Below, one piece after another: positions 1 through 35,588 of a DNA stretch of 46,023 nt (position 1 is its first letter; every line of letters begins with the position of its first letter). The stretch covers positions 1-46,023 of the forward strand of contig JAKSMQ010000011.1 of assembly GCA_024400565.1 (NCBI GenBank). Direction: 5' to 3'. The position numbers and the translations under genes were made by a program. Under the pieces are notes generated by a model, which saw nothing but the letters and a program-made list of their open reading frames with translations, was not told where the DNA came from and searched no databases. This stretch comes from Bacteroidales bacterium (lineage in GTDB: Bacteria; Bacteroidota; Bacteroidia; Bacteroidales; P3).

Positions 1-27
1 TCTTATTACTACGAACAGGAGGACTAA
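1..27 (+). CDS. 3' end of upstream gene (possibly hsdM), partial
   Basis: The first 27 bases read as eight codons (SYYYEQED) followed by TAA. The gene starts outside the window. Because hsdS follows on the same strand, the natural candidate is hsdM, the methyltransferase subunit of the type I system, but eight residues are too few to identify it. The frame itself is only weakly supported. If this is hsdM, the 146 bases before hsdS form an unusually long junction holding the 11-bp repeat array. Confidence 0.3.
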   Translation, partial: SYYYEQED

Positions 28-173: not shown

Positions 174-1457
174 ATGCAAAGATACGACTCATACAAAGAC
201 AGCGGCATTCAATGGCTGGGAGAAATTCCGAGCCATTGGGAGGTTCTGCCTGGAAGAGTTTTATTTCAAGAGAATAAAACTAGAAATGATGGCGGAAATA
301 GAAACATCTTATCTCTTAGTTATGGTAAGATTATTGTCAAGAAAGACACAAATGAAGGTTTAGTTCCTGAAGAATATACGAGTTACCAGATAATCAAACC
401 TGGATATATTATTGTAAGATGCACCGACTTACAGAACGACAAAGTAAGTTTAAGAACAGCCGTTTCTGATTTAGAAGGAATCATTACAGGAGCATACTTG
501 GGGCTTGTTCCCTATAAAAAAGCAAACCCTCGTTTTTTTCACTACTTGTTGAGGACATGGGATAATTGCAAAGAAATATATAGATATGGTTCTGGACTTA
601 GGCAATCGCTAAGTTGGCTTGATTTCAAATATTTACTACTGCCTGTACCTTCCTTAGAAGAGCAGCAAACCATAGCATCCTATCTTGACACAGCCACAGC
701 CAAAATAGACGAAGCCATTGCCCAACAGCAAAAGATGATTGATTTATTAAACGAACGCAAACAAATCATCATCAACAACGCCGTCACCAAAGGCCTCAAC
801 CCCAACGCCAAAATGAAACCCTCTGGCATCGACTGGATCGGCAACATCCCCGAACACTGGGAGGTGAGCAAATTAAAACATCATTCTTTTAAAATTGGCG
901 ATGGGCTGCATGGGACTCCTGTTTATAGTGAGTATGGCAATGCATATTTTATCAATGGCAATAATTTGAGAAACGAAACAATCTCTATTAATGACTCGAC
1001 AATGAAAGTAAGTGACTCAGAATACCAAAAACACTATGTCCCTCTAGGTGATAATGCACTATTGATTTCTATCAACGGATCTATTGGTCACACTTCATTT
1101 TATAATAATGAAAAAATCGTATTGAGCAAAAGTGCAGGATATATAGACCTTCATCCGAGTGCATGTAAACAATACATACGTTATTATTTAATGTCTACAC
1201 CGGTTCTTCATTTTTTCAGAAGGCAACTGACGGGTTCTACTATAGGGAACCTATCACTAGAAACTTTACGAAATACATATTTCACGTGTCCTCCAATAAC
1301 AGAACAAGAAGTGATATCGTCCTATTTAAATAGGGAAACTGCAAGAATAGAGAAGGCAATTGATTCGATACAACGTCAAATTTCAACGCTCCAAGAACGC
1401 AAACAAATCATCATCAACGACGTAGTAACAGGAAAAGTAAAAGTTTGTAATCAGTGA
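174..1457 (+). CDS. hsdS: Type I restriction-modification specificity subunit HsdS
   Basis: HsdS is the DNA-recognition subunit of a type I restriction-modification enzyme. It joins the HsdM methylase and the HsdR translocase/nuclease and decides which bipartite site is bound. The 427-residue protein shows the usual two-fold layout. Target-recognition domain 1 covers about 12-158, and a conserved helix covers about 160-210 with an ERKQIIINNAVTKG motif. Domain 2 starts at about 214 with GIDWIGNIPEHWEV, which mirrors GIQWLGEIPSHWEV at 11-24. A second helix closes the protein at 376-424 with ERKQIIINDVVTGK. The start MQRYDSYKDSGIQWLGEIP is typical of the family. The two recognition domains are AT-rich, while the connecting helix is GC-richer, which suggests domain exchange. 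The matching hsdR is 6.4 kb downstream. Identification is secure; the DNA target cannot be predicted. Confidence 0.95.
   Translation: MQRYDSYKDSGIQWLGEIPSHWEVLPGRVLFQENKTRNDGGNRNILSLSYGKIIVKKDTNEGLVPEEYTSYQIIKPGYIIVRCTDLQNDKVSLRTAVSDLEGIITGAYLGLVPYKKANPRFFHYLLRTWDNCKEIYRYGSGLRQSLSWLDFKYLLLPVPSLEEQQTIASYLDTATAKIDEAIAQQQKMIDLLNERKQIIINNAVTKGLNPNAKMKPSGIDWIGNIPEHWEVSKLKHHSFKIGDGLHGTPVYSEYGNAYFINGNNLRNETISINDSTMKVSDSEYQKHYVPLGDNALLISINGSIGHTSFYNNEKIVLSKSAGYIDLHPSACKQYIRYYLMSTPVLHFFRRQLTGSTIGNLSLETLRNTYFTCPPITEQEVISSYLNRETARIEKAIDSIQRQISTLQERKQIIINDVVTGKVKVCNQ
753..776. repeat. 24-bp direct repeat inside hsdS, copy 1
   Basis: These 24 bases, which begin GAACGCAAACAAATC and encode ERKQIIIN, are repeated exactly at 1395-1418. 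The copies lie 642 bases apart, a multiple of three, so recombination between them would stay in frame and remove or swap recognition domain 2. Such seams are known routes for hsdS shuffling; use of this one is inference. Confidence 0.85.
1395..1418. repeat. 24-bp direct repeat inside hsdS, copy 2
   Basis: This is an exact copy of 753-776, located in the second conserved helix of hsdS. See the first copy for spacing and possible role. Confidence 0.85.
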
Positions 1458-1481
1458 TAATTATTTGAAAGGCTATATACA

Positions 1482-4400
1482 ATGAATATGCGAAAAAAAA
1501 TAATTGTAATAAAATATCTGGGGTGGCTTTTGATGGTGGCATTGTTATCCATGGTCGCCATTGCATTATTTGTTAAGGTGAAAATATGGATAATAATATC
1601 GTCCATAATTACAGCTTTACTAGGATGCGTTTTCTTATTTTTGCGATTCTGCTACAGAATAAATGGCTGGTTTAAATCTCAGTACGAAAAGATATACAAA
1701 GCCTTTTGGAAAAGATGTCGCGATGTTTGCGAGAAATGGATGGTAAGAGCAGAATCAAAGAATTCCTACAAGGATGAGATCGAATTGCTGAGCCCAAAGA
1801 CACATGAGAAATCTCGATATGTTGAAATCTTAAAATCAGCTGTTGACAATCCAAATGTAAAAAACATCGCAATTTCGGGTCCTTATGGATCTGGGAAAAG
1901 TACGATAATTGCTTCCTTTGAGAATATCTTCCCCAAATACAAATGTCTAAACCTATCTTTAGCTGCTTTCGCTGAAGAATGTCAAGGACAACAAACAGAA
2001 GACAAGGAGCAGAAGTCGGGAGTAGACGAAAAGGAAAACAATGAAGATCAAGGATCAGAAGACAAGGATCAGAAGTCGGGAGTAGACGAAAAGGAAAACA
2101 ATGAAGATCAAGGACAAGGATCAGAAGACAATGCACTGTATCCAAATTCAAGCCCCAAGGGAAATCATAGTCAGTCTGAAAATGAGAGTAGTCATGTGAA
2201 ATCTAATACAATTTCCATGGCAGAACTGGAATATAGTCTTGTACAACAGTTCTTTTACCATGTGAAAGCTAGCAAGATTCCCGAATCTCGTTTCGGAAGA
2301 ATTCATCGATGGAATAAATGCCACAAACTACTTTGGTCTATTTTTGCATTTTTTTATTTTCTAATTGTTGTTCTTTGTTTCTGTAAAAATTTGTGTGATG
2401 ATACACCCATACTATCATTAATACCCAATGATGTTGACTGGAATAAAGCATATTATATCGCATTTATTATATCTTCATTTTTTATTCTGTATTGTGTTGT
2501 TGGATTAATTCACAGAATCAAGAGTGCAAATGTAAAAGTAATGGATTATGAGATGTCTTTCAACAAAGACGAAAAAATATCCGTATTTAATCATTATTTG
2601 GACGAATTAGTGTATCTTTTTCAGACAACGGGATATGAAATAGTTGTGCTGGAGGATTTAGACAGATTTCGGAATACAAGCATTTTCACAAAACTGAGAG
2701 AGTTAAACCAGTTACTAAATCAGGCACAAGATATCAATCGCCGTATTGTATTCATATATGCTCTTAGAGACGACATTTTCCAAGATTCCAAAGAACGAAC
2801 AAAATTCTTTGACTATATTATTCCGATAATCCCATATGTTAATGTATCAAATTCTGCAGCTCACTTTGTTGAGTGCTTCCGCCCATATTTAGGAAATGGG
2901 ACTACAGATCTTCATAAATCGTTTATTTTTGATATCGCTCCCTTTGTATGTGATTTACGTACGATTAAAGCTATCGCTTCAGACTTCAGAACTAACATAA
3001 ATCAACTAAATGACAATCTATACAAAGACAATCTATTAGCTTTGATACTATACAAGAATCTTTATCCTAAAAATTTTGATAAAGTGTATGAAGGCAGTGG
3101 TCCACTGAAGGAGATATTTAACAATAGAAGTTTGTTTCTGAAAAGACTAAAACAGGAAAGAGAGACAGAAATAAAAGAAAAAACAGAAGAAATAAAAATC
3201 CTTGAGAAAGAATATCTTGACTCAAAGGGAGAACTTAATATGATTGTTGTAGGTGCTCTGGCTAGATGCATACCACAAGAGTCTTATTTAGTAAATGGCT
3301 CAAACTATTCAGTCGATTTCCCATCCATTGAAGACGACAATGAAATATCAGAAATCTTAGCAGGGCATTTTAAATATATTAGAATGCACACATACCAGCC
3401 TCATCAGATTACAAATTCCAGAATTCTTGAAATGCTACCAACTGGATTTGATTATAAAAAACGTTTAGATTTGATTGAACGCAAAAAAAACTCTCAAATT
3501 CGGATTTTAAAGAATCAAATTGATGAACTAAGAAAAACACAAAATGAACTTGAGGGATTATCATTCAAAGAAATGGTAGCAGAATACTCTGAATTATTAA
3601 ATGAAATAGTTGAAACCCCAGAGAATAATTTGTTGAAATTCCTTGTAAGCAGAGGGTATATCGATGAACAATATCAATACTACTTTACAGTATTCAAAGA
3701 AGGTATTTTATCTTCTAATGACCATGAATATGTGATGGCTGTCAAAAATATAGGCATTTTGGATGAAGATCAAATTGGACGAGTGCTTGACAACCCTAAA
3801 TCTGTATTGTCATACTTAGTAGATAAGTCAGATTATAAAAGTGACATGATATTGAATTCTATGCTTGTTCATGAAATAATTGAGAACACAACTGATGACA
3901 AGCTGGATTGGATACTCGAAAAAATCAAACAAGGGGAAACAATCTGCCTTGATTTTATAAATCGGTATCCATATCCAGATGATGGATTAATTCTGTACGT
4001 CTCTGAGCAATATCCTAACCTTTGGGTAGACTTTATTTCTAATCCACTCTTTTCTAATGAATCCAAACTAATCCTCTTTGAAAGGATTATTAAACATGCT
4101 TTAACATCTAGCATTGAGGCCCTGAATGTGGATGATGAATTGACTATGTATTTAGAAGACTATGGATACCCACACGATGTGACAAAAGATAAAGCAAAGA
4201 GAATAATTGAGAAACTGAAACCAAAATTTAGAAGATTAATCGATGACAGTAACGACGAGAACTATTTGGATTATTCATTTCAGAATGGTTACTATGAACT
4301 AAACAAAGAAAACATCAGGCTTATTCTAAAGAAGTATGGCAACTTAAATTTAGAAAAATATGATTCTGCCATTTATTCTGCAGTGGTTGATTCTAGAATT

Positions 4401-5492
4401 GAGATACTCATTAATAGAGTTGAAGGTGATATTGAGAACTTTGTGAAATATTTAGTTCTATCGAAAGATAACACCGAGGAGCATGAGATGCCATTTGTTT
4501 TGTTATTGAACAATGAATCAATCTCAATTGAGTCAAAGCAGAATCTAATATTGCATAATAGAACTGAAATTAATTCTATTGATCAAATTGAAGATTCACA
4601 CTTGATGAATCTACTATATGAACAAGGGAAAGTGACTCCATCTTGGAAAAATATCAAGCATTATTTTGTGAAGAACGAAATTGAAGAAATTGATGATAGA
4701 ATCCGTATATTTATTAACCAAAATGATGAAGTTATTGCTGGTGAAATAATGGATAACACTAGTCCCGATAATGAAGATATCAATTTGATAAAAATGATTC
4801 TTGATTGTCCTACGATAAATGATTATTTATGGAGAAACATCTTAAACATCCCTCAATATGATGATTGTTGGGCGAACAGTCCTGAATCTTTAAGAGAAGA
4901 ACAAGTCCAGCTACTTATTGAAAAGAAGAGAATAAAATTCGATGTTGGAACGATGAAACAAATCTTATCTGCTTATGACGGTGGAATAAGAGACGTATTA
5001 TTTGAGCAATATCATTCCGAGATAATTAATGCAATAGATGAATTTGAATTCTCTGCCGACGAACTGATAGCCTTTGCTGAGAAAGAGGTTTTCAAGGATG
5101 ATAAAGATGTCTTATATGGGCAAATTCAGAAAGACGATATAGTAAACGAACGAATTGCAAATAAATATCTTGAATTTTCAATCTCGACAGGATATACATA
5201 TCCTTTCGATGTTTTTAAGCAGGCTCTTTGCGTCTCAAAAGATCTATCACTAAAGATCAAGTCTACTGCGGAATATTTTAATAGAGGTTTCACACCAAGA
5301 GATATAGACGGTTTCTTTGAAGAACTTGGAGAACCATTTGTAAAATTAAACAATACTGGACAATATGTCATTTTTGATAACAGCGAGATTTCTCCGCTAC
5401 TTACTTCATTAAAGAATCGTGGGTTTGTTGGGAAAGAAATGCCTATCAAGGCTGGTATCAAGGTTAAGGTAAAGAACAGAAACAAATTATGA
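1482..5492 (+). CDS. YobI/KAP-like membrane-anchored P-loop NTPase (1336 aa)
   Basis: This is a large predicted membrane NTPase. Two hydrophobic helices lie at about 12-31 and 35-56. The segment LLSPK...NIAISGPYGSGKST (102-141) is typical of the YobI-type P-loop domain, with Walker A at 133-141. Walker B is at about 386-395 (EIVVLEDLDR), followed by a sensor-like strand FIYALRDDIF at 424-433. Between Walker A and B lie an acidic tandem repeat (173-211) and two more membrane helices (about 285-302 and 323-344), an arrangement known from KAP NTPases. Two predicted coiled coils follow (about 550-585 and 656-695), then about 600 acidic, probably helical residues that I do not recognise. The gene begins 24 bases after hsdS and its stop overlaps the next ATG. 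I infer a defence or sensing role from its place inside the restriction locus; the biochemical function is unknown. It is AT-rich compared with the housekeeping genes. Confidence 0.8.
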   Translation: MNMRKKIIVIKYLGWLLMVALLSMVAIALFVKVKIWIIISSIITALLGCVFLFLRFCYRINGWFKSQYEKIYKAFWKRCRDVCEKWMVRAESKNSYKDEIELLSPKTHEKSRYVEILKSAVDNPNVKNIAISGPYGSGKSTIIASFENIFPKYKCLNLSLAAFAEECQGQQTEDKEQKSGVDEKENNEDQGSEDKDQKSGVDEKENNEDQGQGSEDNALYPNSSPKGNHSQSENESSHVKSNTISMAELEYSLVQQFFYHVKASKIPESRFGRIHRWNKCHKLLWSIFAFFYFLIVVLCFCKNLCDDTPILSLIPNDVDWNKAYYIAFIISSFFILYCVVGLIHRIKSANVKVMDYEMSFNKDEKISVFNHYLDELVYLFQTTGYEIVVLEDLDRFRNTSIFTKLRELNQLLNQAQDINRRIVFIYALRDDIFQDSKERTKFFDYIIPIIPYVNVSNSAAHFVECFRPYLGNGTTDLHKSFIFDIAPFVCDLRTIKAIASDFRTNINQLNDNLYKDNLLALILYKNLYPKNFDKVYEGSGPLKEIFNNRSLFLKRLKQERETEIKEKTEEIKILEKEYLDSKGELNMIVVGALARCIPQESYLVNGSNYSVDFPSIEDDNEISEILAGHFKYIRMHTYQPHQITNSRILEMLPTGFDYKKRLDLIERKKNSQIRILKNQIDELRKTQNELEGLSFKEMVAEYSELLNEIVETPENNLLKFLVSRGYIDEQYQYYFTVFKEGILSSNDHEYVMAVKNIGILDEDQIGRVLDNPKSVLSYLVDKSDYKSDMILNSMLVHEIIENTTDDKLDWILEKIKQGETICLDFINRYPYPDDGLILYVSEQYPNLWVDFISNPLFSNESKLILFERIIKHALTSSIEALNVDDELTMYLEDYGYPHDVTKDKAKRIIEKLKPKFRRLIDDSNDENYLDYSFQNGYYELNKENIRLILKKYGNLNLEKYDSAIYSAVVDSRIEILINRVEGDIENFVKYLVLSKDNTEEHEMPFVLLLNNESISIESKQNLILHNRTEINSIDQIEDSHLMNLLYEQGKVTPSWKNIKHYFVKNEIEEIDDRIRIFINQNDEVIAGEIMDNTSPDNEDINLIKMILDCPTINDYLWRNILNIPQYDDCWANSPESLREEQVQLLIEKKRIKFDVGTMKQILSAYDGGIRDVLFEQYHSEIINAIDEFEFSADELIAFAEKEVFKDDKDVLYGQIQKDDIVNERIANKYLEFSISTGYTYPFDVFKQALCVSKDLSLKIKSTAEYFNRGFTPRDIDGFFEELGEPFVKLNNTGQYVIFDNSEISPLLTSLKNRGFVGKEMPIKAGIKVKVKNRNKL
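1996..2114. repeat. 60-bp in-frame tandem repeat in the NTPase gene
   Basis: A 60-base unit (20 residues, containing QKSGVDEKENNEDQG) occurs at 1996-2055 and again, nearly identical, at 2056-2114. A truncated third copy follows near 2115. The repeat lies between Walker A and the second membrane pair. A length change of one unit would keep the frame but alter an acidic linker. Confidence 0.85.
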
Positions 5493-5647
5493 TACTGAGA
5501 ACCTACAATATGAATTCGGTAGTGCATTCTAATGATTATGGAATTGTGTACGCACGCGTTCACCATTTTAACAATCGTAACATCTCTTACGTTTTCTACT
5601 CATTGTCAAATAACAGTTCACCAATAGAAACCTTAAAACTCAAATAA
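5489..5647 (+). CDS. 52-aa small ORF coupled to the NTPase and AbiH genes
   Basis: The ATG at 5489 overlaps the stop of the NTPase gene as ATGA. The frame runs 52 codons to TAA at 5645-5647, two bases before the ATG of the AbiH gene. Both junctions are typical of translational coupling, so the frame fills exactly what would otherwise be a 157-base gap in a tight operon. The peptide begins MILRTYNMNSVVHSNDYG and is rich in Asn, Ser, Tyr and Val. It has no signal peptide, membrane helix or cysteine motif that I can see. I recognise no family. It could be a small partner, inhibitor or antidote for a neighbouring toxin-like protein, or a degraded remnant of a larger gene. A second in-frame ATG at 5510 would give 45 residues. 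Confidence 0.5.
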   Translation: MILRTYNMNSVVHSNDYGIVYARVHHFNNRNISYVFYSLSNNSSPIETLKLK

Positions 5648-5649
5648 TC

Positions 5650-6765
5650 ATGAACAGACTAGTAATCATAGGCAACGGCTTCGATTTAGCCCACCACCTA
5701 CATACCAGCTACAAGGACTTTATTGATTGGTATTGGGAACAACGAATTCTTGAATTGGGTAGTGTCTATTCAAAACTTTCGGAAGATAAGCTCTGCAGAC
5801 TAATTAATATGCGAGACCAATGGAATGTATTTGCTTTCTTTCAGAGCTATTTCCATGGTAAAGACCTGTTGAAAATCAAAGATATGATTGAAGAGTGCAC
5901 AGGGGACTTCACAGTTAATAAATTCACATTGTTCGACCGCATCACAAAAAATATTGAAACCAAAGGTTGGACTGACATCGAAAGCGATTACTATGAATTA
6001 TTGATAGAGAATACTAACGATATTGAACAATGCCAAAATCTAAATAACCAACTAGACTTCACTAGAGAGAAATTAGCGGAATATCTGGGCTCGATAGAAC
6101 AGCCCCAAGCGATTGATGCTATAAAACTAGTATTAAATGAACCTGTTTTCATAGACGATGTATCAACTATTGAAATCAATAGAGGGAATGAGCGATTAAA
6201 AAGTATTCCGGAAGAAGAATTTATCGTGATGGATAAAAACACGGATCCAACATACGATTTTGTTGAACAGACGATGCTACTAAGTTTCAATTATACACCC
6301 ACAGCAGAGATGTATCTGGACGAAACCACGCATATCAACTACATTCATGGCTCACTAGACAAACCCAAGGAAATGATTTTCGGTTATGGCGATGAGATGG
6401 ACAAGGACTTCAAAGATCTTGAAAACCGCAACGAGAACGCACTATTGGAAAATTCGAAATCAATCAAATATCTGGAAACAAGTCATTATCGAGACCTGTT
6501 GAGTTTTATTGAGGGCGGCCCATTCCAAGTCTATATCATGGGGCATTCTTGCGGCAACTCCGACCGCACCTTGCTCAACACCATCTTCGAGCACCAAAAC
6601 TGCATCTCCATCAAGCCCTTCTGCTACATCAACGAAAAAGGCGAAGACAACTACTCCGAGCTGACCCGCAACATCTACCGCAACTTCACCGACAAGAAGC
6701 TCTTCCGCGACCGAGTGGTCAACAAAGAACGCTGCACCACCTTGGACGGAAACCCCTTAATATAA
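5650..6765 (+). CDS. AbiH-family abortive infection protein
   Basis: The 371-residue protein matches the AbiH family, first described in Lactococcus as a phage abortive-infection factor. The N-terminus MNRLVIIGNGFDLAHHLHTSYKDF carries the diagnostic GNGFD motif. Later blocks also fit: LLSFNYTPTAEMY (about 216-228), NYIHGSLDKP and FGYGDE (about 232-253), and YIMGHSCGNSDRTLL (about 297-311). The biochemical activity of the family is not settled. The start lies two bases after the small ORF, implying coupling. Codon use changes sharply near base 6510: the upstream part is AT-rich, while the last 80 codons strongly prefer C at the third position. That suggests a recombination join inside the gene. 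Placement between hsdS and hsdR supports a phage-defence role. Confidence 0.85.
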   Translation: MNRLVIIGNGFDLAHHLHTSYKDFIDWYWEQRILELGSVYSKLSEDKLCRLINMRDQWNVFAFFQSYFHGKDLLKIKDMIEECTGDFTVNKFTLFDRITKNIETKGWTDIESDYYELLIENTNDIEQCQNLNNQLDFTREKLAEYLGSIEQPQAIDAIKLVLNEPVFIDDVSTIEINRGNERLKSIPEEEFIVMDKNTDPTYDFVEQTMLLSFNYTPTAEMYLDETTHINYIHGSLDKPKEMIFGYGDEMDKDFKDLENRNENALLENSKSIKYLETSHYRDLLSFIEGGPFQVYIMGHSCGNSDRTLLNTIFEHQNCISIKPFCYINEKGEDNYSELTRNIYRNFTDKKLFRDRVVNKERCTTLDGNPLI

Positions 6766-6840
6766 AATAATTAATAAGCTGAAGCAAATAAAAGAGCGAT
6801 TTTGCCGTTATTACTATTGATAGCACTATAAAAAGCAATT

Positions 6841-7857
6841 ATGTACCAACCGCCATTCAACATATCAACCGAGGCAATCAATCTGATTGCAGAGATTTCT
6901 GCCCTGATAGAGCGTTACGCCATACGCCTAGAGCAAGAAGATGGTCTGCGTCTGCGCAAAGCGAACAGAATCAAGACCATTCATAGTTCTTTGGCCATCG
7001 AGGGCAACAAACTGTCGGAAAGCCAAGTGAGCGACATTATTGAGGGCAAGCATGTGGTGGCACCTATTCGAGAAATACAAGAGGTGAAGAATGCCATCAA
7101 AACATACGAGCTATACTCTCAACTGAATCCATTCAAGATCAAGGATTTGCTGAAGGCTCATGGGGTGATGATGGAGGCTTTGATTGATAATGCGGGGCGA
7201 TTTAGAAATACTGGTGTGGGTGTATTCAGCGAGAAAGGCTGCGAGCACATTGCACCCCCTGCCGACAGAGTGCCCATGCTGATGGCGGATCTCTTTGAAT
7301 GGCTCAAGAAAAGCAAAGACCATCTCCTTATCCGGTCCTGTGTGTTCCACTTCGAGTTTGAGTTTATCCACCCCTTTGCCGATGGCAATGGCCGAATGGG
7401 TCGGCTGTGGCAATCGCTGATATTAGGCCAGCTGCACCCTATCTTTGAATATTTGCCCATAGAAAACATGGTACATGCCAAGCAGCAAGACTATTATAAT
7501 GCCATTGGCGCAAGTAGCCGTGCCGGGCAGAGCGGTCCATTTATCGACTTCATGCTTAACGAGATACTCCATACGCTACAGCAGCACCAAGGCGCAGAAC
7601 TGGCTGATGTCGGCAGAAAAGGGAAAGAAAATGTCGGTACAAATGTCGGTACAAATGTCGGTACAAACGAGAGGAAGATTCTAACCCTCATTGCAAACAC
7701 CCCCAAAGCCACGGCACGGGAAATTGCCGACGCAATAGGCATCACACAACGCCAATGCGAAAGAATACTGGCAAAACTAAAACAAGAAGGCATTATCGCC
7801 AGAATAGGTGCCACAAAGAATGGCCACTGGGAGATAACTACAAATAGCAACGAATAA
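6841..7857 (+). CDS. Fic-family protein with winged-helix C-terminus
   Basis: Fic enzymes usually transfer AMP or another nucleotide part to a hydroxyl on a target protein. The 338-residue protein has the complete catalytic motif HPFADGNGRMGR (177-188), with catalytic His177 and metal-binding Asp181. An N-terminal inhibitory helix carries SLAIEG (50-55), fitting the class II pattern [S/T]xxxE[G/N], so the enzyme probably restrains itself through Glu54. An NVGT-repeat linker (264-276) leads to a C-terminal winged helix-turn-helix domain (about 277-338) that could bind DNA. The gene follows abiH by 75 bases and precedes hsdR by 14. Fic genes are common cargo of type I loci, where I infer an accessory defence or regulatory role. 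The target is unknown. Confidence 0.92.
   Translation: MYQPPFNISTEAINLIAEISALIERYAIRLEQEDGLRLRKANRIKTIHSSLAIEGNKLSESQVSDIIEGKHVVAPIREIQEVKNAIKTYELYSQLNPFKIKDLLKAHGVMMEALIDNAGRFRNTGVGVFSEKGCEHIAPPADRVPMLMADLFEWLKKSKDHLLIRSCVFHFEFEFIHPFADGNGRMGRLWQSLILGQLHPIFEYLPIENMVHAKQQDYYNAIGASSRAGQSGPFIDFMLNEILHTLQQHQGAELADVGRKGKENVGTNVGTNVGTNERKILTLIANTPKATAREIADAIGITQRQCERILAKLKQEGIIARIGATKNGHWEITTNSNE
7630..7665. repeat. 12-bp tandem repeat AATGTCGGTACA x3 in the fic gene
   Basis: Three exact 12-base units start at 7630, 7642 and 7654 and encode repeated NVGT between the Fic domain and the winged helix. Gain or loss of units keeps the frame and would change only linker length. Confidence 0.9.
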
Positions 7858-7871
7858 TCATCTACTGCATT

Positions 7872-10800
7872 ATGACCACATCCAGCACTAACGAGCAAGC
7901 ATTTGAACGACTGATAGAAAAAGCCTTGGTGGGCACTTCTGCCGAGGAGCGCAAGGCATCGGGACTTTGCGACATCGACATTCAGCAGCCGGAGGAAGGG
8001 CGATACTATTGGGGCAGCCCAAAGGACTTTGACAAGAAGGTGGCTCTGGACCAGCGCCGCTTGTGGTCGTTCCTGCATGCCACCCAACAGGAAGAGCTGG
8101 ACAGGTATGTGGGCAAGGACCTGAAGTGCGATGTGGAGAAGCAGATAGATGCCGACATCAAGGCCTTCGGCATCATACAGGTGCTGCGGAAAGGCATAGA
8201 GGTGAACAACATCAAACTCACGCTCTTCTACCCCAAGCCCTCAGCCGCCGATTCGGATATATCGCGGAAGCAGTATGCCGGCAACCAGTTCTCGGTCACC
8301 CGCCAGCAGACCTTCTCCCTCTCCAATCCCGGCTTGGAGATAGACATGGTGCTGTATGTCAACGGCATCCCGCTGTTCACCTTTGAACTGAAGAACCCTT
8401 GGACACACCAGACGGCCAGATACAACGGGCAGAAACAGTACAAATCGACCGAGCGCAACCCCAAAGAGCCGCTGCTCAGCTATGGTCGCTGCCTGGCCCA
8501 CTTCACGCTGGACAAAGACGAGGTGTTCTTTACCACCCGACTGAACCTGGAGAAGACTTTCTTCATGCCATTCAACAAAGGTCTTGCCAATGGACAGGGT
8601 GCAGGAAATCCCGTTAATATGGATGGCGGCTACAAGACCTCGTACCTATGGGAGCAAATTCTGCAGAAAGATACCGTGGCAGACATCATCATGAACTATG
8701 TCCTCTTTGATTATGATGAGACGAAGACTCAGAAGAAGGTTCCGCACATAATGAAGAATGCCAAGAAACTGATATTCCCACGCTTCCATCAACTCGATGT
8801 GGTGACCAAGCTGACTGCCGATGTAGCTGAGAAGGGTGTGGGCAAGACATATCTCATTGAACATTCTGCAGGTTCAGGCAAGTCGAACTCTCTTACCTGG
8901 CTGGCATACAAGCTCATCAAGGTGTGTCCAAAATCCATGGATGCAGTAAGAGCAAAAGCAGTAGATGAACCTCTCTATAACTCGGTTATCGTAGTAACCG
9001 ACCGCCGACTGCTGGACAAGCAGATTACCGACAACATCAGGGCCTTCGGACAGAGCGACAAGATTGTTGCCCATGCCGATTCGTCCAGAGATCTGAAGGA
9101 AGCCATAGAGACCAACAAGCGTATCATCATCACTACCATACAGAAGTTCCCCTTCATCTGCGATGCCATCAATGATGTGAGCGACCACAACTTCGCCATC
9201 ATCATCGACGAGGCCCACAGCTCGCAGTCGGGCATTGCCGCCGATAAGTTGAATGCCACTGTTCAGAAGGATGCAGACCAGGGTGGCGGTGACACAGACG
9301 AACTGCTGGCAAAGCTGATGAAAGACAGAAAGATGAGCAGCAACTGCTCGTACTTCGCCTTTACCGCTACCCCGAAGAAGGAGACACTGGAACGCTTTGG
9401 CACAGAGGATGCGGAAGGGAAGTTTCATCCCTTCCACCTCTACAGCATGAAACAGGCAATAGAGGAACAGTTTATCCTTGATGTGCTGACCAACTACACC
9501 ACCTACAAGAGTTATTACGAACTGACCAAGAGTATAGAGGACAACCCTGAGTACAACAACGACAGGGCACAGAAGCTATTGCGGCGAGCTGTGGAGCGCG
9601 ATCCCAAAACCATTGCAGCCAAGGCCGACGTGATGCTGACACATTTCGATGCCAAGATATATCGCAACCACAAGCTGAAAGGCAAGGCCAAGGCAATGGT
9701 GGTGACGAAGGACATAGAGTGTGCCATCTTGTACTATAAGGCATTAAGCAGACTGATAGAAGAAAAGAAGATGCCTTTCAAAATACTCATAGCATTCTCG
9801 GGCGAGAAACAGTTGTCGAGAGGAATGGCCATCTCCGCGGAATCTCATAGCAAGGAGTCTGAATCATCATATAGTATGGTGGCTGAACCTATTGGCTTGT
9901 ACGGCAGGACCTATACCGAGGCGGGACTTAACGGATTTCCAGAGACAAATACCGCAGAGAACTTTGACGGTGATGACTATCGCATACTCGTGGTGGCCAA
10001 CAAATATTTGACCGGTTTCGATCAGCCGAAGCTGTGTGCCATGTATATCGACAAACCATTGGATGGGGTGTTGGCAGTACAGGCGCTTTCTCGTCTCAAC
10101 CGTGCTGCTCCCGACCTGGGAAAGTTGTCGGAGGATCTGTTTATCCTGGACTTCTATAACACGAAAGAGGGTATTAAAGACGCATTTGATCCATTCTACA
10201 CGGCCACGACGCTCTCGGAAGCTACTGATGTGAACATTCTGCATCAACTCAAAAATACGTTGTTGTCTTTTGATGTGTTCGATATGGACGAAGTTAACGC
10301 TTTCATGGATCTCTACATTCACGGTGAAGATGCCGACAAGTGGGCTCCAATCCTTGATACCTGTGCAGAGCGCTTCAACAAAGAAATTGAATGGGATGAG
10401 AATGGTAAGGCAGACTTTAAGATGAAGTGTAAACAGTTTGTCAAGGTGTATTCTAAAGTGGCGGCCATCATGGAGTTTGAGATGGTTGATTGGGAGAAAC
10501 TATTTTGGTTCCTCCGTTATCTCATACCGAGTCTTCACATAGATAAGCCGGGCGTGACAGACATGAAGGACTTGCTTGATTCTGTTGATCTGAACACCTA
10601 TGGCTTGCGTCGAACTGCACTAAACGAGACAATTATACTAGACTCTGGAGAGACCGTTATTGACCCCAATAAGCCTGTGATGGTTAACGCGGGTGAAAGT
10701 GATGACGAGCCTACTGATTCGCTCGACCAAATCCTGAAGGAATTCAATGAGCGTTGGTTTAAGGGCTGGGAGGCTACGCCAGATGACCAGAAAGCAAAGA

Positions 10801-11036
10801 TTGTTGGTGTCGTAAAGGCTGTTGCTGATGATGAAGACTATCAGACACTAGTTGTGGGTAATCCTGATCAACAAGCGGTAGAGGAAGCTATGATTGGAAT
10901 AATAGACCGTATTATGAGAAAGCAACGTAAGGGCGATATGTCTCTCTATAAGCAGTACCAGCAGAACGAGGGCTTCAAACATAATTTTATCAGTATAATA
11001 GGTCGAATGCTTAGCGATTTAGAGTATGTCAGATGA
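7872..11036 (+). CDS. hsdR: Type I restriction enzyme R subunit HsdR
   Basis: HsdR is the ATP-driven DNA translocase and endonuclease that cuts unmodified DNA after HsdM/HsdS recognition. The 1054-residue protein looks complete. The N-terminal nuclease domain has a PD-(D/E)xK signature with Asp158 and Glu172-Leu-Lys174. The two helicase domains show Walker A AGSGKS (333-338), DEAH (446-449), FTATP (497-501) and a late VQALSRLNR motif. The C-terminal helical part probably contacts the methylase core. It begins 14 bases after fic and is the last gene of the locus, facing a bidirectional terminator. GC content is high through the N-terminal half and falls after about 9830, another mosaic sign. 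The cargo between hsdS and hsdR splits the usual hsdMSR order without obvious damage to either subunit. Confidence 0.97.
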   Translation: MTTSSTNEQAFERLIEKALVGTSAEERKASGLCDIDIQQPEEGRYYWGSPKDFDKKVALDQRRLWSFLHATQQEELDRYVGKDLKCDVEKQIDADIKAFGIIQVLRKGIEVNNIKLTLFYPKPSAADSDISRKQYAGNQFSVTRQQTFSLSNPGLEIDMVLYVNGIPLFTFELKNPWTHQTARYNGQKQYKSTERNPKEPLLSYGRCLAHFTLDKDEVFFTTRLNLEKTFFMPFNKGLANGQGAGNPVNMDGGYKTSYLWEQILQKDTVADIIMNYVLFDYDETKTQKKVPHIMKNAKKLIFPRFHQLDVVTKLTADVAEKGVGKTYLIEHSAGSGKSNSLTWLAYKLIKVCPKSMDAVRAKAVDEPLYNSVIVVTDRRLLDKQITDNIRAFGQSDKIVAHADSSRDLKEAIETNKRIIITTIQKFPFICDAINDVSDHNFAIIIDEAHSSQSGIAADKLNATVQKDADQGGGDTDELLAKLMKDRKMSSNCSYFAFTATPKKETLERFGTEDAEGKFHPFHLYSMKQAIEEQFILDVLTNYTTYKSYYELTKSIEDNPEYNNDRAQKLLRRAVERDPKTIAAKADVMLTHFDAKIYRNHKLKGKAKAMVVTKDIECAILYYKALSRLIEEKKMPFKILIAFSGEKQLSRGMAISAESHSKESESSYSMVAEPIGLYGRTYTEAGLNGFPETNTAENFDGDDYRILVVANKYLTGFDQPKLCAMYIDKPLDGVLAVQALSRLNRAAPDLGKLSEDLFILDFYNTKEGIKDAFDPFYTATTLSEATDVNILHQLKNTLLSFDVFDMDEVNAFMDLYIHGEDADKWAPILDTCAERFNKEIEWDENGKADFKMKCKQFVKVYSKVAAIMEFEMVDWEKLFWFLRYLIPSLHIDKPGVTDMKDLLDSVDLNTYGLRRTALNETIILDSGETVIDPNKPVMVNAGESDDEPTDSLDQILKEFNERWFKGWEATPDDQKAKIVGVVKAVADDEDYQTLVVGNPDQQAVEEAMIGIIDRIMRKQRKGDMSLYKQYQQNEGFKHNFISIIGRMLSDLEYVR

Positions 11037-11279
11037 GGTAACTTGTTCAATATCTGTATTGGGTGAAATGATGTCCTTATAGACCCTGTATATTGCGGCA
11101 GCTTCCTTTAGTTTGACTACATTTGCCCCTTATGGGATGCTATTAAGTAGCTGCTTTCGTTTTTCTTCTACTTTGGCGGCTTTTTGGCGAGCATTGTGAG
11201 CATTATTGATACTCTTCCTGCTGTAGTATTTTGAGAATAATGTTTTGGAAAAGGATTTTGTTGGGTTAAATTTTTTTTC
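11019..11279 (-). pseudogene. possible decayed ORF downstream of hsdR
   Basis: On the minus strand one frame reads like protein for about 85 codons. It includes SRKSINNAHNARQKAAKVEE, then a stop at 11130-11132, then VVKLKEAAAIYRVYKDI, ending within the last codons of hsdR. There is no start codon, and a stop lies immediately upstream at about 11277. The Lys/Ala/Glu-rich composition looks like a real helical protein, so this may be the remnant of a gene cut by insertion of the restriction locus. I cannot name a family. The evidence is composition only. Confidence 0.3.
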
Positions 11280-11318
11280 TTAGACTTTTTCTATTTGAAA
11301 TTTACTTGCTGGCGGAAG

Positions 11319-11366
11319 TAAAGTCGTAAATTATGCATGCAGATAACGCATAAAGTCGTAAATTAT
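11319..11366. repeat. 16-bp direct repeats TAAAGTCGTAAATTAT
   Basis: Exact copies lie at 11319-11334 and 11351-11366, 32 bases apart, about three helical turns. They could be recombinase arm sites, operator sites or a leftover of insertion. No integrase gene is nearby in the window. Confidence 0.8.
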
Positions 11367-11422
11367 CGTGTGGGACAGATATGGGACAAATATTATAAAG
11401 ATTACCGTATTAACTCTGAAAG

Positions 11423-11457
11423 AAAATAGGTGTAAGTTTTTGACTTACACCTATTTT
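11423..11457. terminator. bidirectional terminator between hsdR and dnaK
   Basis: A perfect 15-bp inverted repeat (11423-11437 and 11443-11457) surrounds a 5-base loop. It has A-rich and T-rich outer ends, so it can work on both strands for the convergent hsdR and dnaK transcripts. Confidence 0.9.
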
Positions 11458-11487
11458 TGGTATAATGTGCGGGTTTGATTCGGCTTG

Positions 11488-13413
11488 TTATTTAACCTCC
11501 TCGTAGTCAACGTCGGTTACGTTGTCGTCGCCGCCATTGTTGTTGCAGCTGCCGTTGCAGTCGCTGCCACAGTCACAACCGCCCTGGGCGCCGGGGTTGG
11601 CTCCTGCCTGCTGCTGAGCCTGGTACATATCCTGGCTTGCAGCCTGCCATGCGTTGTTGATCTTCTCCATAGCGGAGTCTATCTGACCAACGTTGCGGGC
11701 GCTATGAGCAGCCTTGAGCTCGGTGAGAGCGCTCTCGATAGCCTGTTTCTTCTCGGCGGGAATCTTGTCGCCGTAGTCTTTCAGGTTCTTCTCGCTTTGG
11801 AAGATCATGCCGTCGGCAGCATTAATCTTCTCAATCTCTTCCTTAGCCTTCTTGTCGGCGTCGGCGTTGGCTTCGGCTTCAGCCTTCATGCGTTTGATTT
11901 CTTCTTCGCTAAGACCGGAGGAAGCTTCGATGCGGATGTTCTGGCTCTTGCCGGTAGCTTTGTCGCAAGCACTTACGTTGATGATACCATTGGCATCGAT
12001 GTCGAAGGTTACTTCGATCTGGGGAACTCCACGGGGTGCTGGTGGAATGCCTGCAAGGTGGAAGCGGCCGATGGTCTTGTTGTCTTTTGCCATAGGACGT
12101 TCGCCCTGGAGTACGTGGATTTCTACTTCGCTCTGGTTGTCAGCAGCTGTGCTGAATACCTGGCTCTTCTTGGTAGGAATGGTGGTGTTGGCGTCGATGA
12201 GGCGGGTCATTACGTTGCCGAGGGTCTCGATACCGAGAGAAAGAGGAGTTACGTCGAGGAGAAGAACATCCTTTACTTCGCCGGTGAGAACGGCACCCTG
12301 GATAGCGGCTCCGATTGCTACTACCTCGTCGGGGTTAACGCCCTTGGAAGGAGCTTTGCCGAAGAACTTCTCGACAATCTGCTGGATAGCGGGGATACGG
12401 GTAGAACCGCCCACGAGGATAACCTCGTTGATGTCGCTGTTGGTAAGACCTGCGTCCTTCATGGCCTGACGGCAGGGTTCGAGGGTGGCCTGGATAAGGT
12501 TGTCGCAGAGCTGTTCGAACTTAGCACGGGTAAGGGTGCGTACAAGGTGCTGGGGAACGCCGTCTACAACGGTGATATAGGGGAGGTTAACTTCGGTCTG
12601 CTGGCTGCTGGAGAGCTCGATCTTGGCTTTCTCGGCTGCCTCTTTGAGACGCTGGAGGGCCATAGGATCCTTGCGGAGGTCGATGCCTTTTTCTGCCTTG
12701 AATTCGTCAGCAAGCCAGTTGATAATCTTCTGGTCGAAGTCGTCGCCGCCGAGGTGGGTGTCACCATTGGTGGAGAGTACTTCAAATACGCCGTCGCCAA
12801 GGTCGAGGATGGAGATATCGAAGGTACCGCCACCGAGGTCGAATACAGCAACCTTCATGTTGTGGTCTTTCTTGTCGAGACCATAAGCCAGAGCAGCTGC
12901 GGTAGGCTCGTTTACGATACGGCGTACGTTGAGACCTGCAATCTCTCCTGCCTCTTTGGTAGCCTGACGCTGGCTGTCGCTGAAGTATGCGGGCACGGTG
13001 ATGACAGCTTCGGTTACTTCCTGTCCGAGATAGTCTTCGGCGGTTTTCTTCATTTTCTGAAGAACGATAGCGGAGATTTCCTGGGGGGTGTAGAGACGGC
13101 CGTTGATGTCAACGCGGGGAGTGTTGTTGTCGCCGCGAACAACATTGTAGGGCATAGCCTCAATCTCTTTGGTTACGCGGTCATAGGTCTCGCCCATGAA
13201 ACGCTTGATGGAATAAATGGTGTTGTGAGGGTTGGTAATGGCCTGACGCTTGGCGGGGTCACCTACCTTGCGGTCTCCGCCTTCTACAAAACCTACGATG
13301 GAGGGGGTAGTGCGATGACCTTCGCTGTTAGCGATTACTACGGGTTCGTTGCCTTCGAGTACGGCAACACAGGAGTTGGTAGTTCCTAAGTCGATTCCGA
13401 TGATTTTTCCCAT
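11488..13413 (-). CDS. dnaK: Molecular chaperone DnaK (Hsp70)
   Basis: DnaK is the cytosolic Hsp70 chaperone that binds exposed hydrophobic peptides in an ATP cycle with DnaJ and GrpE. The 641-residue protein starts [18 protein letters not shown], the Hsp70 phosphate-binding loop. It carries the second phosphate loop [11 protein letters not shown] and the interdomain linker [13 protein letters not shown] before the substrate-binding and lid domains. The C-terminus ends in the usual acidic DVDYEEVK. Just before it lies an unusual Gly/Asn/Cys stretch, [11 protein letters not shown], with four cysteines. The gene stands alone, with no grpE or dnaJ beside it. A sigma-54-like promoter with a palindrome and tandem repeats lies upstream. 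Codon use is strongly biased, as expected for high expression. A 634-codon open frame on the opposite strand is a by-product of that bias. Confidence 0.99.
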
Positions 13414-13491
13414 GATATTATTTTTTTTTATTTTGTTTTCGGTTTAGAGCGATTTAGTTGTTTTGGGGCATCTGCTCTTTACTTATCATAG

Positions 13492-13507
13492 TTCAATATC
13501 CGTGCCA
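13492..13507 (-). promoter_or_regulatory. sigma-54-like -24/-12 promoter for dnaK
   Basis: Read on the minus strand, the sequence is TGGCACGGATATTGAA, close to the sigma-54 pattern TGGCAC-N5-TTGC[A/T] with one mismatch in the -12 part. It lies about 80 bases upstream of the dnaK start. A palindrome and two 10-bp repeats sit immediately upstream, where an activator could bind. No TAnnTTTG box competes with it. Assignment is by pattern only. Confidence 0.5.
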
Positions 13508-13510
13508 CGT

Positions 13511-13544
13511 CTGCCACATGGCAGAAAAACTGACAAAAACTGAC
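13511..13544 (-). promoter_or_regulatory. palindrome and 10-bp tandem repeats upstream of dnaK
   Basis: An inverted repeat CTGCCA-CA-TGGCAG (13511-13524) is followed by two exact copies of AAAAACTGAC (13525-13534 and 13535-13544), and then ATTGGCA. The cluster sits directly upstream of the candidate dnaK promoter and looks like regulator-binding DNA for a heat-shock gene. It could equally serve the divergent outer-membrane gene. Confidence 0.5.
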
Positions 13545-13641
13545 AAATTGGCATACTTTTGACTTATTGACATGACACACACAATATTTTTCTTTTCTTT
13601 CCGTTACTAATTTTATTATTGGATTTAATACATTATAATAT

Positions 13642-14592
13642 ATGAAAAAACTTTTACTTACTTTCTTCTTACTTGCATTAACCTCAGTTGGTTATTCGCA
13701 GGTTATCGATACTGTTGATCATAGTATCGAAGCCCAGCAGCTTATTGAAAAGCAGCAGAAAGAACAGCAACAGCTTCTCGAAAAACAGCAGAAGGAACAG
13801 GATAAGTTCCTCGAACAGCAGCAGAAAGAGGCTGCAGCTGCCGCCAAAGAACAGCAGAAAGCTGAAGAGGCTGCCGCAAAACAGCTCGCCAAGGAACAGA
13901 AAGAGGCTGAGAAGGCCGAAAAACGTGCCATCGCCGAGCAGAAACTTATTGAGAAACAGCAGAGAGAAGCCCGTCGTGCAGAACGTCGCGAACGCATAGG
14001 CCGCACCTGGAAGCGCTCGTTCGACCCCTTTGCTCAGTTGGGTTGTAACGCCATCTTCGGCGATGCTCCCGATCTCCGTTTCGGAACTCCTGCCGCTTTC
14101 GGTATGGGAATCCTGGTTCATTATCCCTTGGCCAAACATTGGGATCTGGACCTCGGTCTTAACTATCGTGCCTGTTTCTATCTCTTCAGCAATGGCGTGA
14201 ACTACGATGCAGCTGGCGATACCCTTATGCCTTCTGTTTCTGCTAACTATGTTCGCGAACGCGACCGTATCTTCACCCAGACCATTCAGCTTCCCATCCT
14301 CATGAGCTACGTAGGCGAAGAGGGTCAGCAGTTCTTTGCCGGCGTTAAGCTTGGCTACAATTTCATCAACAAGTTTGTCCACTCCAGCTGGGATGGTAGC
14401 GAATGGAATAAGGTTTCTACCGACCTCAAGAGCCGTTCGGTTGTAAATCGTTATCGTGTCGATCTTACCATCGGTACTATGGAACAATGGCTGGTTTTCG
14501 CTCATGGATTTGAACTCTATTACAATCTCGTTCCCACTTTTGTCGGTGGTGACAAGAAAATCCACGAGTTCGGTATAGGTATTCGTCTCTAA
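13642..14592 (+). CDS. outer-membrane beta-barrel protein with long periplasmic coiled coil
   Basis: The 316-residue protein begins with a clear signal peptide (MKKLLLTFFLLALTSVGYSQ). A Gln/Lys/Glu/Ala-rich coiled coil covers about 28-120, with repeated EKQQKEQ and KEQQKAEEAAAK. From about 125 to the C-terminus the sequence alternates aromatic and polar residues in beta-strand style and ends GIGIRL, as expected of a small outer-membrane barrel of the PorT/OMP-beta-barrel type. The coil would lie in the periplasm and could reach towards peptidoglycan. No enzymatic motif is visible. A terminator follows at 14613. It is transcribed divergently from dnaK, with 228 bases between. Family assignment is by overall architecture; the specific role is unknown. 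Confidence 0.75.
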   Translation: MKKLLLTFFLLALTSVGYSQVIDTVDHSIEAQQLIEKQQKEQQQLLEKQQKEQDKFLEQQQKEAAAAAKEQQKAEEAAAKQLAKEQKEAEKAEKRAIAEQKLIEKQQREARRAERRERIGRTWKRSFDPFAQLGCNAIFGDAPDLRFGTPAAFGMGILVHYPLAKHWDLDLGLNYRACFYLFSNGVNYDAAGDTLMPSVSANYVRERDRIFTQTIQLPILMSYVGEEGQQFFAGVKLGYNFINKFVHSSWDGSEWNKVSTDLKSRSVVNRYRVDLTIGTMEQWLVFAHGFELYYNLVPTFVGGDKKIHEFGIGIRL

Positions 14593-14650: not shown

Positions 14651-14677
14651 GTCGAGAGGGAAATGTTTTGCCGGCAT

Positions 14678-14757
14678 ACAGACAGCACATAGGCAGCATA
14701 CAAACAGCACTTAGCCGGCACACAAACAGCACGAGAAACATTTTTTGTGCTGTCTGT
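14678..14757. repeat. 11-bp-period repeat element, copy A (ACARACAGCAY)
   Basis: Five contiguous 11-base units start at 14678, 14689, 14700, 14711 and 14722 (for example ACAGACAGCAC and ACAAACAGCAC). After a 14-base spacer ending in a T-run, one inverted unit GTGCTGTCTGT lies at 14747-14757. That unit is the perfect complement of the first one, so a hairpin can form. A longer relative is at 35421-35588. Confidence 0.85.
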
Positions 14758-35420: not shown

Positions 35421-35588
35421 GTAGACAGCACACAGACAGCACACAAACAGCATACAGACAGCACACAAACAGCACACAAACAGCATACAGACAGCACACA
35501 GGCAGCACATAGGCAGCACATAGCGTCCTCGAAAATCAGAAATGGTACTGCTTGTGTGCTGTTTATGTGCTGTCTGTAAGCTGTCTGG
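35421..35588. repeat. 11-bp-period repeat element, copy B (9 direct, 3 inverted units)
   Basis: Nine contiguous 11-base units run from 35421 to 35519 with consensus ACARACAGCAY. After a 36-base spacer, three inverted units follow: GTGCTGTTTAT (35556), GTGCTGTCTGT (35567) and AAGCTGTCTGG (35578). Direct and inverted parts can pair into a long imperfect hairpin. A shorter element of the same design is at 14678-14757. Confidence 0.9.

Follow-up and report, generated by a model that had tools for sequence, protein, structure and literature searches.

Contig C3 of a Bacteroidales bacterium opens with a stretch of 46,023 bases, referred to here as the window, that holds two genes of a type I restriction operon with further defence genes between them. 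Six open reading frames lie on the plus strand in the order hsdS, Tmn, ORF52, AbiH, Fic and hsdR. The preliminary description placed defence cargo between hsdS and hsdR, and Tmn, AbiH and Fic are present there; the common direction and the spacing that it gave, with a gap of 24 bases, an overlap of 4 and gaps of 2, 75 and 14 bases, agree exactly with the coordinates of the open reading frames. The 4-base overlap and the 2-base gap suggest translational coupling of Tmn, ORF52 and AbiH. The profile-based family assignments of the window genes lie far beyond chance level. A search of Rfam gave zero matches, and scans for promoters and terminators stayed at about chance level.

The locus is larger than the preliminary description stated, since its coordinates miss a 5' part, BroFic and hsdM, on contig C31. 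The first 55 bases of C31 are the reverse complement of window bases 1–55, and in the whole genome exact copies of this stretch occur at two places only, the start of C3 and the start of C31. Contigs that adjoin in an assembly graph would be expected to share their ends in this way, and C3 and C31 are presumably such neighbours. Combining the contigs gives the whole order hsdM, BroFic, hsdS, Tmn, ORF52, AbiH, Fic and hsdR.

Subunits and cargo of the operon

The combined contigs hold a complete set of type I genes, with hsdS and hsdR in the window and hsdM on the adjoining C31. The specificity gene hsdS (174–1457, plus strand) has two target-recognition stretches, both matching PF01420 (Methylase_S, 3.5e-20), and matches the PADLOC profile Specificity_I at 9.8e-112. 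The restriction subunit HsdR (7872–11036, plus strand; 1054 aa) combines HSDR_N (5e-13) and SWI2_SNF2 (7.6e-27) domains, with the motifs FELK at residue 171, GSGKS at 334 and DEAH at 446; it matches TIGR00348 at 5.2e-60 with 203.7 bits, which lies under the curated cut-off of 284.55. The methylase gene hsdM (C31: 1388–3694, minus strand) lies upstream of BroFic, contains HsdM_N (3.5e-23) and N6_Mtase (5e-51) domains and is the sole HsdM_N match in the genome. A second hsdR-hsdM-hsdS set lies on contig C42. In HsdM, HsdR, Tmn and the two Fic proteins every motif checked is intact, and from these motifs the Hsd set is predicted to be active in methylation and restriction.

Tmn (1482–5492, plus strand) encodes a YobI-like P-loop NTPase of 1336 aa that matches PF20693 (YobI-ATPase) above its cut-off at 7e-97 and the PADLOC Tmn profile at 5.7e-70. 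The Walker A motif lies at residue 133 and LEDLDRF at residue 390, and between them fall two hydrophobic segments, 283–301 and 325–343, an arrangement that places the protein in the Tmn family. Two more segments, 13–31 and 35–53, lie at the N terminus, as do two in the nearest relative (L123, 39% identical). By hydropathy these are predicted membrane segments, which bears out the membrane NTPase of the preliminary description. One loop carries a 60-bp in-frame tandem duplication (1996–2114, plus strand; 2.0 copies, 98%) and is longer in the window than in 10 aligned relatives (alignment A1). Searching the PDB with a Tmn profile returned short P-loop matches to interferon-inducible GTPases, and 628 plasmid records matched Tmn, all at less than 60% identity, 458 of them from Escherichia. 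The available part of one published account presents Tmn as a KAP-family NTPase with two transmembrane domains and an unexplored mechanism (PMC11846954). The window protein resembles the one described there in its YobI-ATPase domain, PADLOC match, Walker motifs and membrane segments, and differs from it, so far as that part goes, in the two extra N-terminal hydrophobic segments, in the repeat-bearing loop and in being encoded upstream of AbiH within a type I operon.

Between Tmn and AbiH lies ORF52 (5489–5647, plus strand), a putative gene of 52 aa that shares its first 4 bases with the end of Tmn, stop codon included. It matched nothing in Pfam, PADLOC or NCBIfam and has no relative among the open reading frames of the scanned loci, a set that does not include L214–L293.

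The AbiH protein (5650–6765, plus strand; 371 aa) belongs to PF14253, which it matches at 6.8e-31 (108.7 bits; cut-off 30.9); its PADLOC match is weaker (8.3e-12). In 28 aligned sequences (A2) the invariant positions G8–D12, N214–T216, H233, G234, G298, S300 and D305 form GNGFD, NYT, HG and G-S-D groups, and H233 is nearly, not fully, invariant in a second set of 20 (A3). The family resembles SIR2_2 enzymes weakly by profile: in one hhalign comparison an alignment of 49 AbiH sequences reached a probability of 83.7 (E 8e-6) against SIR2_2, where three control families scored 0.1, while the close AbiH clade alone reached only 16.6 and classical SIR2 gave 11.2. The aligned part covers the NYT, HG and G-S regions, and the N-terminal GNGFD falls outside it. 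When the AbiH profile was run against PDB sequences, no match emerged (best E 0.4). Relatives of AbiH were absent from the viral collection when it was searched with the single protein, and an alignment search of it returned 30 loci (L214–L243), 19 of them matched over most of their length; judging by these relatives, phages or prophages may carry AbiH as well. One plasmid matched AbiH. The idea that AbiH generally follows a small membrane protein was rejected, as upstream neighbours with a hydrophobic segment were found in 6 of 43 cases against 57 of 272 control pairs.

The available text of Makarova et al. (2012, PMC3506569) predicts AbiH to be an enzyme of the Sir2 superfamily and places such enzymes in type I loci; a second source, in the part available, lists its mode of action as unknown (PMC12322248). 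The window protein shares the family PF14253 with the Lactococcus AbiH of a 1996 report, as cited in that part of PMC12322248, and differs from it in its setting, beside Tmn within a type I operon. The weak SIR2_2 likeness and the predicted Sir2 membership make the effector role that the preliminary description gave to AbiH plausible.

Both flanks of this central part carry Fic genes with the HPFx[D/E]GNGRxxR core of Fic AMP transferases. The downstream one (6841–7857, plus strand; 338 aa) combines a Fic domain (1.2e-21; PADLOC SoFic 2.9e-44) with a C-terminal winged helix. Its core, HPFADGNGRMGR, lies at residue 177, and SLAIEG at residue 50 is a candidate inhibitory motif. The linker contains 3.2 copies of a 12-bp repeat (7629–7667). 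The DNA from Tmn to Fic matched 13 plasmid records, and the 10 listed match inside the Fic gene only. BroFic, which joins Bro-N (Pfam, 6.4e-07) to Fic (1.8e-11), occupies C31: 29–913 on the minus strand; its 3' end is window 1–27 on the plus strand, with the stop codon TAA at 25–27. Between hsdM and BroFic lies an open reading frame of 46 aa (C31: 1231–1371, minus strand) with a weak likeness (E 0.06) to just the first 22 positions of Fic_N, perhaps a remnant of earlier Fic cargo.

Base composition changes from gene to gene. GC is 0.379 in hsdS, 0.332 in Tmn, 0.407 in AbiH, 0.479 in Fic and 0.489 in hsdR, with 0.545 in the neighbouring dnaK, and these differences support a mosaic assembly. The 3' part of abiH (6550–6765) has a GC of about 0.53 and the rest of the gene 0.34–0.41; with such a shift it looks as if a recombination joint lay inside abiH near its 3' end. 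Elsewhere the window holds arrays of 11-bp tandem repeats at 83–130, 14670–14732 and 35423–35520. The latter two contain closely spaced GACAGCACACA-type copies on both strands, which could therefore form hairpins, and the window has 9 matches of this type against 0.49 expected; the array at 83–130 has a different repeat unit.

Tmn and AbiH in other genomes

Relatives of Tmn were collected from the same family (4 of 190 genomes, the bacterium's own included), from the same order (10 of 393 over the cut-off), from 84,980 species genomes (the best 80 of 443 kept) and from viral contigs (9 loci). Once three duplicate contigs (L141, L153, L178) had been taken out, the set comprised 98 loci, the window among them. 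Loci were labelled with home-made profiles over six-frame open reading frames, at thresholds that differ between counts; several label seeds were named by eye, and Pfam agreed for all 10 seeds or kin submitted. A type I locus was defined as HsdS plus HsdM or HsdR within 12 kb.

With the species genomes represented by their best 80 of 443, 15 of the 97 other Tmn loci lie in type I loci, in genera that we place, from the record titles, in Bacteroidota, Campylobacterota and Spirochaetota. Nine of the 97 have Tmn between hsd genes on the same strand (L126, L130, L136, L145, L149, L150, L151, L163 and L191). Many contigs are short, and the 61 loci, window excluded, with 5 kb on each side include 12 type I loci, 8 of them embedded; at looser thresholds some label is borne by 26 of 101 loci, a total that counts the duplicates and the window. 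L198, at a contig end, holds Tmn with a Schlafen-type gene, Fic and HsdR and was scored as unlabelled in the count of 97. A quick Tmn tree with long branches, which holds 95 of the 98 rows, requires no fewer than 12 changes to account for the 15 rows (the window's being one) that lie in type I loci; shuffled rows averaged 14.2 changes, and 21 of 500 shuffles were as low. Placement is scattered and mildly clustered, and part of it may therefore be inherited.

The preliminary description treated the NTPase, ORF52, AbiH and Fic as one module that might serve as a backup to restriction. That unit does not recur: the whole set is found in none of the 97 other Tmn loci and ORF52 in none of those scanned. 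AbiH accompanies Tmn in two of them (L012, L130) and Fic in two, or three with a looser threshold. What is found is largely the single exchange of genes at this position, an outcome that the description itself had named as speaking against a module. Seven of the nine other loci with Tmn embedded among hsd genes have neither AbiH nor Fic labelled, AbiH is embedded without Tmn in L083 and L084, and GC differs by gene. The swap is plain in L011 and L012, two loci of one genus whose Tmn proteins are 74% identical: downstream of Tmn lies a Schlafen AlbA_2 protein in L011 and, 24 bases on and on the same strand, AbiH in L012. The stretch of L011 that was scanned has no AbiH. In L130 one operon runs hsdM, hsdS, AbiH, an unknown gene, a Schlafen-type gene, Tmn, a GmrSD-type gene and hsdR. 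On the Tmn tree, the company of AbiH takes three separate changes.

These loci hold further genes. Directly upstream of Tmn, L011 encodes a 503-aa protein (12138–13649, minus strand) with a reverse transcriptase domain (RVT_1, 2.2e-10). The type I locus of L012 stands head to head with its Tmn-AbiH pair and has an AAA_13 protein (9043–11196, minus strand; 4e-54) between hsdM and hsdS.

AbiH was matched in 42 of the 393 genomes of the order, the bacterium's own included. The 52 other loci are the 55 listed places without the window's, with two split genes each counted once and fragments included; 10 of them lie in type I loci and two, L083 and L084, are embedded. These two, from one genus, read hsdM-Fic-hsdS-AbiH-hsdR with no Tmn, which is the order of the window minus Tmn and the last Fic; their Fic has a winged helix rather than Bro-N. 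In L110 (genome G460; 8466–12703, minus strand) AbiH directly abuts the end of a gene for a 1004-aa KAP_NTPase protein (PF07693 1.2e-34), a second kind of NTPase-AbiH neighbourhood.

Cargo is common in the type I operons of this order. A census took 60 of 138 listed hsdM places, the best per genome by E-value order, with the window's genome omitted; 58 kept the HsdM label and 33 formed complete M-S-R sets, L084 recurring as L350. In 27 of these 33, the span from the first to the last hsd gene holds some other open reading frame of 60 aa or more, and spurious frames may be among them. The same 33 contain AbiH once (L084 again), Fic twice, BroFic once, AlbA_2 five times, YhcG three times, RhuM twice and RloA once; Tmn is absent from all 58 loci that kept the HsdM label. 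As a control, housekeeping sirtuins lie in type I loci in 0 of 20 cases, one (L303) having HsdS nearby. One-sided Fisher tests against this control gave 0.030 for AbiH and 0.049 for Tmn, both barely below 0.05; the control covers just the order of the window, and the Tmn loci come from several phyla. By these values both genes seem favoured by type I loci. A mutual preference of Tmn and AbiH above the type I background is not shown, since AbiH occurs in 2 of 15 Tmn-bearing type I loci against 1 of 33 in the census (one-sided P 0.23, not significant).

Readings of the cargo

The probable reading is that of a complete type I operon whose hsdM-hsdS and hsdS-hsdR joints have been filled piecewise with exchangeable cargo, BroFic, Tmn, AbiH and Fic, working as largely independent layers. 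The Hsd enzyme would cut incoming unmethylated DNA, and the cargo, under shared transcription, would add those layers against phages that escape it. Tmn would act as a membrane-anchored NTPase defence with an unspecified trigger; AbiH, being SIR2-like, would once activated consume NAD or transfer from it and halt growth; the Fic proteins would modify host or phage proteins. Gene content, order, the intact motifs, the recurrence of Tmn and AbiH as cargo and the exchange of cargo genes are observed, whereas all the activities, the common transcript and the independence of the layers are deduced. The tight spacing around ORF52 speaks against this reading, as do the mild clustering of type I placement on the Tmn tree and the barely significant Fisher values. 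A further counterpoint comes by analogy from the closest studied case, TgvAB of Vibrio cholerae, encoded in a type I locus: in the part of that report available, tgvAB alone gives weaker protection than the full cluster against several phages (PMC11411939).

Tmn and AbiH could instead form a sensor-effector pair, in which Tmn detects infection and licenses AbiH as its SIR2-like partner, the type I placement being incidental. Other NTPase-SIR2 pairs exist, SIR2-HerA being one. In the window as in L012 the two genes are same-strand neighbours, they share the L130 operon, and the L110 AbiH abuts a different NTPase gene; as they stand together in two of the 97 other loci, a functional pairing is possible. 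It is nonetheless unlikely, for those two loci are the only ones among the 97, the AbiH company of Tmn takes three separate changes on the tree, in L130 two genes intervene and the order is reversed, the close Tmn of L011 has no AbiH in the stretch scanned, and the comparison with the type I background above is not significant. Less likely still is a combination of ideas, with Tmn sensing for AbiH and the pair brought into type I operons repeatedly and thereby coupled to restriction, as a layered defence against unmodified and restriction-resistant phages.

The position of the cargo inside the hsd cluster, like that of prrC, also recalls a guard, in which the Hsd complex silences the cargo and a phage anti-restriction protein releases it, as with PrrC and PrrI. 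Such logic has been proposed for toxins in immunity loci, with AbiH named among the Sir2-type components, in the available text of Makarova et al. (2012, PMC3506569). The window shares with the PrrC-PrrI system as presented there an extra effector within the hsd cluster and differs in that none of the six scanned window proteins is like PrrC. A guard would call for stable linkage of effector and hsd genes, and the linkage found is loose: 82 of the 97 other Tmn genes and 42 of the 52 other AbiH genes have no type I locus as scored, some on short contigs, and those copies therefore cannot depend on a linked Hsd complex. The window Fic, moreover, has a candidate inhibitory motif of its own, and HsdR nuclease activity was not needed for TgvAB protection (PMC11411939, in the part available). 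A guard that senses anti-restriction is thus unsupported here and has a low probability. The least probable account holds the clustering to be non-adaptive, the type I joints simply tolerating insertions within a defence island, with some cargo, ORF52 and the 46-aa frame, decaying and functionless in this genome. It would suit the missing relatives of ORF52 in the scanned loci, the weak Fic_N likeness of the 46-aa frame and the GC change near the 3' end of abiH; the large genes are open over their full length with the checked motifs intact, which argues against long decay, since that would not keep them.

Known cargo-loaded operons and significance

The reading as a mosaic of exchangeable cargo has precedents. 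In the RRDM island of the EPEC strain of E. coli, DarTG2 lies between hsdS and hsdR (PMC12255303, in the part available); the window resembles that island in having toxin-type defence genes at the hsdS-hsdR joint of a type I operon, but here the cargo is made up of Tmn, AbiH and Fic genes and fills the hsdM-hsdS joint as well. The type I operon of V. cholerae VPI-2 likewise has cargo within the hsd cluster, and the available part of its report offers complementary defence as the authors' suggestion and cites RloF of Campylobacter (PMC11411939). TgvAB, as presented there, is a modification-dependent restriction system of the GmrSD type; none of the scanned window proteins matched such a family, and the related locus L130, unlike the window, has a GmrSD-type gene. 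The exchange of toxins in restriction-modification loci, with Sir2 toxins in type I loci, is a general idea in the available text of PMC3506569. Because of these precedents, DarTG2, TgvAB and exchanged toxins, the window is a cargo-loaded type I operon of an already described kind. Within the open-licence literature no account of the Tmn-AbiH-Fic combination in a type I locus was found, and no single paper that treats AbiH, Tmn and restriction together.

What the window and its relatives add is that type I operons of several phyla repeatedly carry Tmn as a passenger, for which the open-licence literature gave no description. The loci L011 and L012, L083 and L084, L130, L136, L163 and L191 offer natural comparisons of cargo slots with and without each gene. 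Were Tmn to license AbiH, two poorly understood defence genes would gain a mechanism that can be tested.
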